Shown here piece by piece: positions 20,302 through 27,235 of a stretch of 64,000 nt of DNA (position 1 is the first letter of the stretch; each line of letters opens with the position of its first letter). Position numbers and translations under genes: made by a program. Where the stretch lies: positions 2,259,501 to 2,323,500 of the forward strand of contig NZ_CP035730.1 in assembly GCF_012222305.1 (NCBI RefSeq). Reading direction: 5' to 3'. This DNA is from Sulfolobus sp. S-194. Its GTDB lineage: Archaea; Thermoproteota; Thermoprotei_A; Sulfolobales; Sulfolobaceae. The notes under the pieces are model-generated. The model was not told where the DNA came from and ran no database searches. It was given only the letters and a program-made list of their open reading frames with translations.

Positions 20302-20313
20302 TTGGGAATTGAA

Positions 20314-20856
20314 ATGTCTAAGATAAACTTTAACGAAGGAAATGCAACAAGATTGGAGTATATATGGCCGATAAGATTTGCCGTGGGATGGATGTTCTTC
20401 GATGGAGGTATAAGAAAAGCTATATTAAAACCGGCTAAACTAGACCCTAATTCTTCTTCGTTTGTAGGAGGAAAACTAGTTAACTTCCTACCCCACGCAG
20501 GACCTTTTAAACCGTTTTTATTAATGACTTTAGAGAATCATGCATTAAATGTGACCTTCTTAACAATATTCAGTTACATAGAGATTCTAGCAGGTCTATT
20601 CTTAGTTATAGGACTTTTGACTAGACTAGCTGCCTTTGGTGCAGCTGTAATGGCTATTGGTATGGCTCCAGCCTACTGGTTAGGTTCAACATGTGAGGAT
20701 GAGTGGCAAATTGGTTCATTACTAACTGCTGGTGCTATAGTAGTTATGTTAACTGGTGCTGGTAGGGTTTGGGGACTGGACTATTTCCTCTACAAGAAGT
20801 TTGGTGATAGGGGTATTGCTAATGTTCCGTTATTAAAGTGGATTAAATTATGGTGA
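20314..20856 (+). CDS. doxD: Thiosulfate:quinone oxidoreductase subunit DoxD
   Basis: The 180-residue protein matches DoxD of Acidianus ambivalens: [18 protein letters not shown], then [21 protein letters not shown] and four hydrophobic helices. With DoxA it forms the TQO complex that oxidises thiosulfate to tetrathionate on the outer membrane face and reduces caldariella quinone. An in-frame TTG at 20302 is nearer the TATA-predicted transcript start, but ATG 20314 begins MSKINFNEG as in homologues and is preferred. doxA follows six bases later. Confidence 0.92.
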
Positions 20857-20862
20857 GGAAAA

Positions 20863-21369
20863 ATGAACAAAGTAGCAATTGTTGGAATTATTTTTGCATT
20901 ATTCACAGTAGGTTGGATATTAGGTACTGGGCAGTGGGCATATGGAAACGTTGTAGGACCTCTATTTAATAACTCTAAGCTTCCAAAACTTAATGTCACC
21001 TATATTACAGCATATAATACTCCGCAAGGCCTATGCCTAATAATGAATATCACTGATATCGATGGTCCTGATGCATATCCAGCATCTGCTCCTCTAATGG
21101 AAATATCTAATGGGACTTGGCACATTTTCCTAAACTCTTCCCAGATTGCTAATGATACAGTAAAGATAATTCAAGCACCATGGAATGCGAATAAAAAGGA
21201 CTCTGTTAATTGGTACTCTGGCTTTATAGTTGTTTTAGGAAGTGAAGGACAATTCCATCTGCTAATAAAGGGACTACATTTATCTCCAGGCAAGTATGAA
21301 GTAAAAATATATACTCCAGCAATAAGTCCAAGCAGGCAAGCTGTTGCTTACTTCATGATAAGTAGTTGA
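20863..21369 (+). CDS. doxA: Thiosulfate:quinone oxidoreductase subunit DoxA
   Basis: The 168-residue protein has one N-terminal membrane helix ([18 protein letters not shown]) and a beta-rich extracytoplasmic domain with several N-glycosylation-type sequons (NVT, NIT, NGT, NSS, NDT), as in DoxA of Acidianus. It is the second TQO subunit. It sits six bases behind doxD in one operon. Confidence 0.9.
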
Positions 21370-22978: not shown

Positions 22979-24571
22979 ATGTCCCAAGAGAAAAGATCTC
23001 TATTCTTAAGAGAGAGTTCTGGTCTAGTAAGAGAAGTTAGCCCCTGGGCATCAATGTCAGCAACTTTCGGATTAGTAACCGGTGGTGTTCCAATTCTTAT
23101 AATCTCATGGCTTTTTACAGCACCAGGGGCAAATTGGGTATTAGCTTTCTTACTAGCTTTACCCCCAACTTTAGGAATGGCATTTCTTTTTTATATAGCC
23201 GGAGTTTCAATGCCTAGGGCTGGAGGAGATTATGTTTTTAATAGTAGAGCTGTTCATCCGGTAATAGGTTTCGTGAATTATTGGGGTTTATTTATAGGTT
23301 TTGCACTTTCTTTAGGGTATTATAGTTACTTAGCCGCACAATGGTTCGCATATCTATTTTCTGGTATTGGATTAGCCTATAATAATCAATACTTTCTAAA
23401 TATAGGTAATTTCTTAGGAACTACTCAAGCTGAAGTAATCTTGGGAACGGTTGTAGTTATAATTTCAACGGCTTTAGCCATGATACCTAGATTCCAGTGG
23501 AAGTTTGTGCTATGGGGAGGTATAATTTCCCTTATATCCAGTATCATAATGTTTATTGCATTAGCTCAAATAAGTCCATCCCAGTTTGCTCTAGCCTTAA
23601 GTAAGAATGCTGGGATACCGAATGCCTATAATGAGGTTATCCATGATGCGGAAAGTAATGGATTAACATTTTATCCAACTTTGTATGCTTCATTTTTAGC
23701 ATTACCAGTAATTTGGTATTATTATACATGGTATAATTTACCGGCTTCATGGTCTGGAGAAATGAAAAGACCGAAAATGAATGTACTTTATTCAATAATA
23801 CTAGCGATACTAATAATATCAGCATACTATATTTTAATAGTATACTTCAGCGAGAAAGCTTTTGGCGCCTCTTTCCTTACTTCATGGAGTTATATATCAT
23901 ATAATGGTATTAACGACACTGTTTATAGCACTTTAAGTAATATAGGAGACTTTATACCGTATTTTGCATTTATTGTAAATCACAGTTTACCGCTATTCAT
24001 TATAATGTTTATAGCACTATGGTTGCCAAACTTTTATAGTAACCCACCATTAGTTGTAGCACTTGTAAGATATCTATTCGCATGGTCTTTTGATAGAGTT
24101 ATGCCTTCATGGTTAGCTGATGTTAATGATAGATTTAAGTCTCCATTAAAGGCTACAATATTAGTTGGTATTTTAGGTGAAATTGGAGTATTACTTTATG
24201 CATTTAACACTCCAGTAGCGATTGTAGATACTACTGTAGTCTTTGAAATAGGATATGCACTTTTCGCAATATCAACTGCGTTAATGCCGTTTGTAAGAAA
24301 AGATTTATATAAAAGAACTGTCCAACATAAATGGAACATTTCTGGTATTCCAGTTATATCAATAATTGGCTTCGCTGTTTTCGGTTTTCTGATTTGGGTG
24401 CTAACTCTCACTTGGAATAATCCAGTGCTATTACCAGTGAACTCTGTAACTATACTCTCCCTAGCAGTGATATATGGATCCGGAATTCTAATATATGTTT
24501 TAGGTTACCTACTGAACAGAAGAAACGGAATAGACCTTAATTTACTATTTAATGAAGTTCCGCCAGAATAA
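22979..24571 (+). CDS. APC-superfamily amino acid permease
   Basis: The 530-residue integral membrane protein has about twelve to thirteen helices. The N-terminal region [21 protein letters not shown] and [20 protein letters not shown] are typical of archaeal APC transporters. The substrate is not determinable. A 12-codon upstream frame ([12 protein letters not shown]) starts at ATG 22970 and runs across the permease start in another frame; GGGGGTTCAT precedes both ATGs. Confidence 0.85.
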
Positions 24572-24603: not shown

Positions 24604-26466
24604 ATGAATTTACTGATTTTATTTTCAATTGCAATTTCCATGCTATTAGTGATGTTCTATGCTATCTATGAAGTGAAGAATTGGAGAAGTGATAGGAGAG
24701 TTTTAGTTGCTATTTATATAGAAGGAATGATGCTAGTAATGAATCTAGGAGCGTATTTTTATCTTTTACTTCATGATCTTTTTGTATTTCTTGTAATAAA
24801 TGGAGCTTATATGATATTTGGTCTTTATGCTATCCTTAATATTAAATCAATATCAAGAAATATAGTATACATGCTGTTCTCCTTATTTATGATTATTTCT
24901 GAAGTATTTATGGGTTCACTATTTTATATTCTTCAAACTGGTTTACCAGCAAACCTTGATTCCTCTATAGAGAATCCTTGGTTTGTCACAGTAATGATTG
25001 CTGAAATGATTTTTACATTAGTAGTATCTCTTAAGAGACTCGATAAGACGTTAAGAAATTATCTTATAAGCTTACTTTTACTAATGCCTTGGTTTCCAGT
25101 TATTTTGTCAAATTATGCCTTCTTATTCTCTTCGATAATAATGATAGGTACTACTATACTAGTTTACGAGACTTTATATAATCAGAGATTAAGGGCAACT
25201 CAAGAGACTTTTACCACGTTAGAATTAATGAGTATATTTACACTTATGATGATTGGAGGGTTTATATATTTTCTAGTATCTTCCCTTACTGTTTACGACG
25301 TTTCGATGCTAGTTGCAATGGTTTGGTTTGTTTATAGGACTGTTGCAGGACCTAATCCGAGAAAAGGAAACTATCTAAGAGATGCAAAGATTGCATTCTC
25401 AATAATTTTTCTGACATTTATTATGGAATTCTTCATGGGCGGCGTTTTAGATTTCGTTATGGGTGTATTTTCCCCAGGTATTCAAGGCTTTATTTCTTCA
25501 CTTAACTTACCATGGACCGGGAATATACTTTGGGATGGTATTGATATAATAGGCAGCATATTAGCGAGCACTTGGTTCTTAATAATGATGGGAATAGAAA
25601 TGGGATTCTTGGCTTTTAAGAAAATTTTAGAGATTAGAGTAAGGGAAGTTAAAGTAAGAATGGCTTTAATGATATTGGCCTATGTAATATATTCAATATA
25701 TATACCTAGTTTCTCCCCCTTATCATCCTCATTACCATATATACCGTACATGTGGAGCATGGGTATTGGAACTATGGCTCCAGTGAGTAATTCCGTCTTA
25801 TTAGGTTTAGTGGGAACTTACATTATTTACGCGATTCTTTCATTCCTATTTGGATCAAGAAATTTATGCGCTGTTACGTGCACAGCCCCACTAATGTATC
25901 AAGGTACCTTTTATGACTCACTTAAGGTTTATAATAGGACATCTAAAGTTGGTAGGAAATTGTTAACTAGTAAGAGTAAATATTACCGACCAGTAGCCTT
26001 ATTCGTTTCTATTCTTGTTCTAATTGCAGCAATAATATCTTACTTAAATAACCTAGGAATAATATCTTTTACAATTTTTAATACTGATATTACTGTTCTA
26101 ATTTATTTCATTTGGTTCGACATTATGTGGTATTTACTATTCATCTCAATACCCTTCTTAGGTACTTTTGCATGTGTAACTTCTGGCTATTGTTATTGGG
26201 GAGTTTTCAATCAAGCAATAAGCAGGATAGGACTCTTTAGACTTAAGGTGAAAAACCCAAAGCAATGCATAGAATGTAAGACTGTAGATTGTGCAAATGC
26301 CTGCCCAGTAGGTCTTACTGATATGAGAGGCGAGTTTATTAAAAAAGGCGAATTTAGGTCAATAAAGTGTGTTGGAATTGGAGAATGTATTGATGCATGC
26401 CCCTATAACAACATATTTATTTATGATGTCAGAAATTGGATTAAAGAAAGATTTAGAGGGAAGTAA
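24604..26466 (+). CDS. Polytopic membrane protein with C-terminal ferredoxin domain
   Basis: This 620-residue protein has about fourteen helices over residues 1-540 and a ferredoxin-like tail with C555, C558, C563, C567 followed by Pro, then C589, C595, C599 followed by Pro. The second motif lacks one of the usual four Cys, so one intact [4Fe-4S] cluster and one incomplete site are expected. The membrane part has two Glu-containing repeats (SEVFMG around E100, MEFFMGG around E275), each followed by an EM motif (E134, E332). It is probably a membrane redox protein passing electrons between cytoplasm and quinone; family not recognised. Its 3' end overlaps the next gene by 44 bases. Confidence 0.72.
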   Translation: MNLLILFSIAISMLLVMFYAIYEVKNWRSDRRVLVAIYIEGMMLVMNLGAYFYLLLHDLFVFLVINGAYMIFGLYAILNIKSISRNIVYMLFSLFMIISEVFMGSLFYILQTGLPANLDSSIENPWFVTVMIAEMIFTLVVSLKRLDKTLRNYLISLLLLMPWFPVILSNYAFLFSSIIMIGTTILVYETLYNQRLRATQETFTTLELMSIFTLMMIGGFIYFLVSSLTVYDVSMLVAMVWFVYRTVAGPNPRKGNYLRDAKIAFSIIFLTFIMEFFMGGVLDFVMGVFSPGIQGFISSLNLPWTGNILWDGIDIIGSILASTWFLIMMGIEMGFLAFKKILEIRVREVKVRMALMILAYVIYSIYIPSFSPLSSSLPYIPYMWSMGIGTMAPVSNSVLLGLVGTYIIYAILSFLFGSRNLCAVTCTAPLMYQGTFYDSLKVYNRTSKVGRKLLTSKSKYYRPVALFVSILVLIAAIISYLNNLGIISFTIFNTDITVLIYFIWFDIMWYLLFISIPFLGTFACVTSGYCYWGVFNQAISRIGLFRLKVKNPKQCIECKTVDCANACPVGLTDMRGEFIKKGEFRSIKCVGIGECIDACPYNNIFIYDVRNWIKERFRGK

Positions 26467-27235
26467 AATTTTTCCTCTGATTTTCACTCTTTCCCTACTA
26501 GCTACTATAATGGTTGCTATTATAGTTTATACTATTTATTCTGTTTCCTATAAAATAAAATCTGAAATTGGCTTATTCTTCGCATTTTTTGTATTAATAA
26601 TGATGATTACAATGTTTATTGGAGCAATAGTTTATTTACTTTCACCTTCTAACATCTCATTGGCTGAGGCAATTATCATAAATAATGCTTCTATGCTTAT
26701 TCTATTAGTTTATCTATTTATAAATGCAAAAAAACTAACTTCCAATAGAGATTTTTCTAAGATTCATATATTCTCACTTTCAATTCTTACGGTACTAAAC
26801 GAGATACTCATGGGAGGAGCATTTAGCTTAGCTTACTTTGGCATAAAATACTTTTTAACTTTCTATTCAGCGTTTTTAACTACCCTAAATTCATACTGGT
26901 TTTTCTATCCAATGATGGCTGAAATGTTAGCCTTATATTTAATTGATTATTTAAAATCAAGAGTAAATAAAGAATTATTTGCTTTAATTGGAATAACAAC
27001 ATTTCCTCCAACCATATTTAACTTTTCTCAGTGGATATACTCTAGTATATTTATTGACGTCATCCTTTCCTTAATAGGTATAATGAATTCAAAAGGCTTA
27101 TGGAGATATCTCTACATAGTAACTGTAATAAGTATAATTTCAACATTATTTATACCAACTTTTTTTGATATCATAATTATTATAGATATGATATTATACT
27201 ATGTGTATTTACTGAATAGGAGTAAGGTATCTTAA
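26423..27235 (+). CDS. Membrane protein related to the upstream ferredoxin-tailed protein
   Basis: From ATG 26423 it encodes 270 residues with seven to eight helices. NEILMGGAF (E127) and MAEMLAL (E167), followed by FPPTIFNFSQWIYSSI, match SEVFMGSLF, IAEMIFTL and FPVILSNYAFLFSSI of the preceding protein, so this is a paralogue of its N-terminal part without the ferredoxin tail. A longer frame from 26369 would extend deep into the ferredoxin motif of the upstream gene and is unlikely. The two genes are translationally linked and probably form one complex. Confidence 0.68.
   Translation: MMSEIGLKKDLEGSKIFPLIFTLSLLATIMVAIIVYTIYSVSYKIKSEIGLFFAFFVLIMMITMFIGAIVYLLSPSNISLAEAIIINNASMLILLVYLFINAKKLTSNRDFSKIHIFSLSILTVLNEILMGGAFSLAYFGIKYFLTFYSAFLTTLNSYWFFYPMMAEMLALYLIDYLKSRVNKELFALIGITTFPPTIFNFSQWIYSSIFIDVILSLIGIMNSKGLWRYLYIVTVISIISTLFIPTFFDIIIIIDMILYYVYLLNRSKVS

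Follow-up and report, generated by a model that had tools for sequence, protein, structure and literature searches.

What function do two neighbouring genes of the acid- and heat-loving archaeon Sulfolobus sp. S-194 fulfil, in whose products a membrane-embedded pattern of Glu and Met recurs three times, once next to a ferredoxin tail? Both genes lie on the + strand of the window, by which we mean the whole stretch of 64,000 nucleotides that was analysed, and all features of them given below are on this strand. Gene A (24604..26466) encodes a protein of 620 residues, composed of two five-helix Met/Glu units and, C-terminal to them, a NapH-like membrane ferredoxin module. Gene S (26423..27235; 270 residues when counted from the ATG at 26423) encodes one full Met/Glu unit and four further predicted helices similar to the beginning of unit 2 of A. 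Where S truly starts is uncertain. The ATG at 26423 falls inside gene A, and the initial annotation had described two overlapping genes; they are indeed neighbours on the + strand, but their overlap is doubtful, since in two sister species in-frame stops separate this ATG from the conserved part of S, so that S probably starts further downstream. Between 26423 and 26510, no start codon for S is conserved within the window's genus and none of ATG, GTG or TTG is present at the expected start position; an unusual initiation codon is possible.

Immediately upstream of A, in the window's genus, lies a gene for an APC-type amino-acid permease (22979-24571, +), and about 3 kb upstream are DoxD and DoxA (20302-21369, +), assigned by NCBIfam equivalogs as subunits of thiosulfate:quinone oxidoreductase. 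The order DoxD-DoxA-SWIM protein-permease-A-S is also found in the sister genomes L201 and L202. In another Sulfolobaceae genus, a permease of the APC type but of a different family lies directly upstream of A (L182:7807-9213, L213:96-1064), and a permease-like gene near A in L217 has no Pfam family match. This neighbourhood may reflect either chance or a link to A, and we do not claim a general one.

To what extent are the three copies equivalent? The initial annotation had singled out three motifs, each followed by a Glu-Met pair, and we recovered all of them at the positions given there: SEVFMG (E100) is followed after 34 residues by AEM (E134) and MEFFMGG (E275) after 57 residues by IEM (E332), both in A, and NEILMGG (E127) after 40 residues by AEM (E167) in S, numbered from the ATG at 26423. 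We compared the segments by profile-profile alignment with hhalign, using profiles built from alignments of A and S with distant relatives, with A split into residues 1-160 and 161-350. Unit 1 matched the S unit with an E-value of 6e-27, unit 2 matched the S unit with 1.9e-8, and units 1 and 2 matched each other with 1.8e-6, each value being that of a single comparison; the Glu/Met columns were aligned in all three cases, whereas 18 control families from the same neighbourhoods reached E-values of at least 0.005. The three segments are therefore homologous. Unit 1 comprises residues 1-142 of A (24604..25029), with the core M13, M43, M46, M70, E100, M103, M131, E134 and M135. Unit 2 covers residues 170-343 (25111..25632), with the core M180, M215, M216, M239, E275, M278, M328, M329, E332 and M333. 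The unit of S lies at 26471..26953, with the core M30, M60, M61, M64, M91, E127, M130, M164, M165, E167 and M168.

AlphaFold2 models, computed for A alone and S alone, had a mean pLDDT of 82 and a pTM of 0.82 for S, and a pLDDT of 72 overall for A, with about 75-92 across residues 1-320 but only about 42-75 in the C-terminal half, which is poorly modelled. In all three units, the models contain five long helices, the last two of which are separated by a short one; in unit 1, the long helices span residues 2-25, 30-56, 59-79, 85-112 and 125-142. The segments are thus equivalent in predicted structure as well, and the lack of equivalence that the initial annotation had named as its refutation did not arise. 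The conserved Met and Glu residues are on average 2.1 residues (A) and 1.8 residues (S) away from the helix midpoints, a closeness that none of 20,000 random placements attained; as this test uses the helices of the models, which share the same alignments, the evidence is not fully independent. In the models, the conserved residues of each unit form one mid-membrane belt rather than a ladder spanning the membrane, so that a transport path is not evident. Together with the concerted loss of Met and Glu in one paralogue described below, the sequence statistics and the predicted helix pattern support the proposal of a duplicated functional unit.

The unit also occurs outside A and S, in two further proteins of the same genome, paralogue C (two units) and S2 (one unit). 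Sequence and fold searches with the Met/Glu unit yielded no supported match in Pfam, NCBIfam or the PDB, the best Foldseek hits against the PDB having E-values of 0.52 (S) and 0.57 (A), with no solved fold matched. A sub-threshold match of S to FixQ, seen in one of ten members, was treated as chance.

What these units might do is best approached through the residues that do not change. In unit 1, the only invariant residues among 40 sequences from two archaeal phyla are five Met and two Glu. The 14 invariant positions of unit 2 are eight Met, three Gly, one Pro, one Leu and one Glu, and the 12 of the S unit are eight Met, two Glu, one Tyr and one Pro; an alignment of S across phyla, with sequences 18-44% identical to the window protein, has 16 invariant positions, including eight Met and two Glu, while M165 is invariant in Sulfolobaceae only. 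Leu, Ile, Val and Phe, which make up the bulk of the unit helices, are almost never invariant, and no unit contains an invariant His. In oxidase subunit I, treated in a like manner, eight of the ten His are invariant; these are the haem and copper ligands of this protein. Met/Glu invariance in the units is thus akin to the usual signature of ligands. Among the proton path, quinone site and metal site considered in the initial annotation, the marked preference for Met speaks for a site that binds a soft metal.

A merely structural role, in which the Met/Glu pattern would serve packing or topology without any cofactor, appears very improbable to us. Met is common in membrane helices and paralogue B manages without the Met/Glu residues, as this explanation would have it, but Met and Glu are almost the only residues that stay invariant in units 1 and S, whose sequences share about 20% identity between phyla; moreover, a buried Glu is costly, and in B the Met/Glu set was lost together. 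We also regard it as unlikely that the core holds a larger cofactor, such as a haem, another porphyrin or an iron centre, ligated by Met and acting as an intramembrane electron carrier. The dense ring of invariant residues at a single membrane depth would suit a bound cofactor, and cytochrome genes adjoin; yet membrane haem proteins nearly always use His, which is not invariant in any of the units, and no haem family was matched in Pfam and NCBIfam searches.

The second half of A provides a clearer family context. The NapH-like membrane ferredoxin module comprises residues 396-620 (25789..26463). In a whole-genome search, A matched TIGR02163 (NapH) with an E-value of 7.9e-10 over model positions 60-250 of 255, scoring 38.7 bits against a cut-off of 213, so that A falls outside the strict NapH family. 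The only proteins of the genome with matches covering the membrane part were B, A, C and a FoxG-like protein, all below the cut-off. Judging from these matches, the C-terminal half of A is a divergent member of the NapH/MauN/NosR membrane-ferredoxin superfamily. The module also aligned with the FoxG-like polyferredoxin family (hhalign, E 1.1e-9), which shares the C-x5-C spacing of A. Pfam and NCBIfam searches with A yielded only ferredoxin families, and PDB sequence searches with A and S only ferredoxin-domain chains. An HgcAB-like match to A (E 2e-6) spans only residues 406-604 and was taken to reflect the shared ferredoxin module.

A contains 11 Cys, every one of which is invariant across A and B. 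Four of them, not mentioned in the initial annotation, belong to the same electron-transfer module and form two pairs, C422-x3-C426 at the end of a membrane helix (25867..25881; C457/C461 in C) and C524-x5-C530 (26173..26193; C550/C556 in C), both of which are predicted by the positive-inside rule to face the cytosol. The other seven, C555, C558, C563, C567, C589, C595 and C599, lie in the C-terminal ferredoxin domain (26266..26415; Pfam Fer4_7, E 1.1e-8). As had been noted from the sequence, this tail lacks one Cys, having seven where a full dicluster ferredoxin has eight. The eighth position, I592 (26377-26379), is Ile, Val or Leu in A and never Cys in A or B, while paralogue C carries Cys there and thus has the complete set of eight. 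In A, one cluster would accordingly have three Cys ligands, and could be either a [3Fe-4S] cluster or a [4Fe-4S] cluster with one additional non-Cys ligand.

The window's genome encodes three A paralogues, namely A, B (483 residues) and C (644 residues), and two S genes, S and S2. In C, the second Glu of unit 1 (E134) is replaced by Asp. In B, the region of unit 1 is absent altogether and the Met/Glu set has been lost, with varied residues at nearly all of its positions, but all 11 Cys have been kept, indicating that the functions of the Met/Glu core and of the iron-sulphur module can be separated. In almost every genome examined, the gene for B (L009:7143-8594) adjoins one for a DUF929 protein and one for a further protein that looks exported.

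These relationships also bear on a reading that we consider possible, though on balance rather doubtful, according to which A and S form an electron-transfer complex: the NapH-like module would link the quinone pool to cytosolic ferredoxin, possibly running electrons in reverse while iron or sulphur is oxidised, and the Met/Glu units would constitute a quinone pocket or a proton path that couples this transfer to the proton gradient. NapH, the best-matching family, and NosR are quinol-linked carriers with the same membrane module (PMC5928378). Also in line with this reading, the fox cluster and the Rieske-cytochrome b operons considered below are electron-transport loci, and the Glu residues are kept, or replaced by Asp in C. 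However, the residues conserved at quinone and proton sites are usually His, Tyr, Arg, Asp or Glu, unlike the eight Met per unit seen here; protons are not carried by Met, and the entire Met/Glu set could be lost in B while the ferredoxin module was retained.

Genes of the A type, with paralogues counted, are present in all 31 Sulfolobaceae genomes (E≤1e-10), and S is present in 27 of them. Sixteen genomes contain the subtype of the window's A (at least 64% identity), all 16 of them together with S, whereas S accompanies A in nine of the 14 genomes that have only a distant subtype of about 50% identity. Elsewhere in the same phylum, A occurs in family f30, with two intact copies and one decayed copy, and in family f52. 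A scan of genome contigs furthermore revealed A in several Thermoplasmata assemblies, where it (L217-L225) is 45-63% identical to Sulfolobaceae A, a high value for a different phylum. In a tree of 56 proteins, B and C each formed a clade with full support, and the Thermoplasmata copies were placed among the Sulfolobaceae A proteins; within the limits set by its long branches, this tree suggests that A was transferred between phyla of acidophiles. Gene decay was seen in two genomes. In one (G019; L204, L203), both A and S are broken, with only a remnant of A itself, while in the other (G147; L205) only a fragment of A is left. A and S, as a candidate complex, are neighbours in two phyla and have decayed together in one genome.

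Ten loci, drawn from three genera of Sulfolobaceae, have the gene for haem-copper oxidase subunit I after A on the same strand. In two genomes of family f30, the order is coxII-coxI-Rieske-cytochrome b-A, with coxII identified only by its sequence clustering with fox subunit II. At two Thermoplasmata loci (L219, L224), genes for a Rieske protein, cytochrome b and a CxCE membrane protein precede A. On six contigs of Thermoplasmata or related origin, an S-like gene adjoins A, and five of these match the S model (E≤6e-7). In Metallosphaera-type and related genomes, relatives of S reside in the fox cluster, between a CxCE protein and a FoxG-like polyferredoxin, as do the S homologues between the genes at the FoxF and FoxG positions in L193, L194 and L209.

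Large membrane proteins with an S-C-x-C-E motif were observed in two settings, the fox cluster and, in Thermoplasmata, the position immediately preceding A (L209:5765-7639, L219:4425-5900, L224:4149-5714, L225:560-2038). Their comparison gave a borderline result, with an hhalign probability of 19% and an E-value of 0.0012, and we do not claim homology between the two groups. In profile comparisons, a further gene adjoining A in L172 was not related to the CxCE proteins.

The co-occurrence of A with oxidases extends beyond the shared loci. A haem-copper oxidase was found in every genome of the phylum sample that has an intact A, and in 7/7 others, as compared to 153 of the 398 genomes of this sample overall, although owing to relatedness these counts represent fewer independent events than they suggest. 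In the genome with only a fragment of A (G147), a search for haem-copper oxidases found none. In the same sample, A is present in about 22 genomes, against 153 with an oxidase; as most oxidase-bearing genomes thus lack A, it is not a general copper-loading factor.

Based on these findings, A and S are probably a hitherto undescribed metal- or cofactor-binding part of the respiratory chain. We favour, with somewhat less than even confidence, the reading that A and S form a membrane redox module in respiration, which would serve the haem-copper-oxidase branch of thermoacidophilic archaea and in which each Met/Glu core would ligate a soft metal, most likely Cu(I). As thioether and carboxylate ligands need no deprotonated His, such a core would be suited to low external pH. 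The cytosol-facing ferredoxin module could then carry electrons between the Met/Glu site and a donor, either a cytosolic one or quinol, with the direction of transfer being part of the proposal, and the copper would be kept reduced and handed on to copper-containing respiratory enzymes, in a mode resembling that of the cupric reductase CcoG, without A being CcoG.

What leads us to copper is the choice of Met and carboxylate, the copper enzymes encoded nearby, the low pH-sensitivity of Met and the precedent of CcoG. Counting against it are the mismatch to TIGR02745, described below, and the fact that the nearer family, NapH, is a proposed quinol oxidiser and not a copper reducer, for which reason a quinone or proton site retains nearly the same probability as a copper site. 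Also counting against it, G019 has kept its oxidases despite its broken A and S. On a broader view, we deem it conceivable, although still distinctly short of probable, that the five-helix unit forms a metal site of Met and Glu within the membrane, of a kind not described before, and that two to three copies of it are connected to a ferredoxin module of the NapH type. The unit would then represent a metal-redox device of acidophile respiration beyond bacterial copper assembly or classical quinol chemistry, one that passed between two archaeal phyla along with the respiratory gene clusters of acidophiles.

In terms of novelty, the C-terminal half of A is a variant of a known module, while the Met/Glu unit falls into none of the families described in the libraries searched, and there is a substantial chance that this unit is itself a new kind of membrane site. 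Should copper indeed be bound in the core, this metal site within the membrane would consist of Met and Glu, without His or Cys. A single membrane unit now links proteins of the fox cluster, an orphan membrane ferredoxin of Sulfolobaceae and the Rieske-cytochrome b operons of Thermoplasmata, with specific candidate residues named for testing. It thereby offers a concrete candidate for copper handling in archaea that respire at pH 1-3, as well as for the uphill drive of electrons in iron-oxidising archaea.

How does this candidate complex, which the initial annotation did not recognise, compare to known systems? Its C-terminal half can now be assigned to a module of the NapH/NosR type and S to the paralogues of a fox protein, while the N-terminal unit is still without a family match. 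Like NapH, MauN and NosR, A combines a membrane module of four helices, in which two Cys motifs lie close to helix ends, with a C-terminal dicluster ferredoxin. In NapH and NosR, which are quinol-linked carriers, the membrane part with its two Cys motifs has been proposed to accept the electrons of quinol (PMC5928378). Unlike these proteins, however, A has CX3C and CX5C motifs without CP in place of two CX3CP motifs, lacks one ferredoxin Cys where they have two complete [4Fe-4S] motifs, and carries about 390 additional N-terminal residues with the Met/Glu units. A second point of reference is CcoG, a membrane iron-sulphur protein that reduces Cu(II) and is encoded beside an oxidase in bacteria (PMC7558416). 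A is likewise a membrane protein with a ferredoxin module, but CcoG has no Met/Glu units, and a whole-genome search with TIGR02745 (CcoG/FixG) returned one unrelated short match and none in A. Conserved Met residues in membrane helices are also known from the methionine ladder of CusA and the Met/His site of CcoA, where they bind Cu(I), and Met ligands have been described as less sensitive to pH (PMC7558416); A and S, in contrast, showed no relation to CusA and CcoA in sequence or fold, and have one mid-membrane Met/Glu belt per unit.

A further relationship is that to the fox cluster, whose published order is foxA-A'-I-B-C-D-E-F-J-G-H (PMC7325606). Judged by gene order only, the S relative of Metallosphaera-type genomes occupies the foxJ position, and the protein at this position is homologous to S. 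The window's S differs from the fox-cluster gene itself in lying beside A, outside the cluster, whose copy in the same genome is S2, 48% identical to S. A, in turn, resembles a fusion of a doubled Met/Glu unit with a FoxG-like module.
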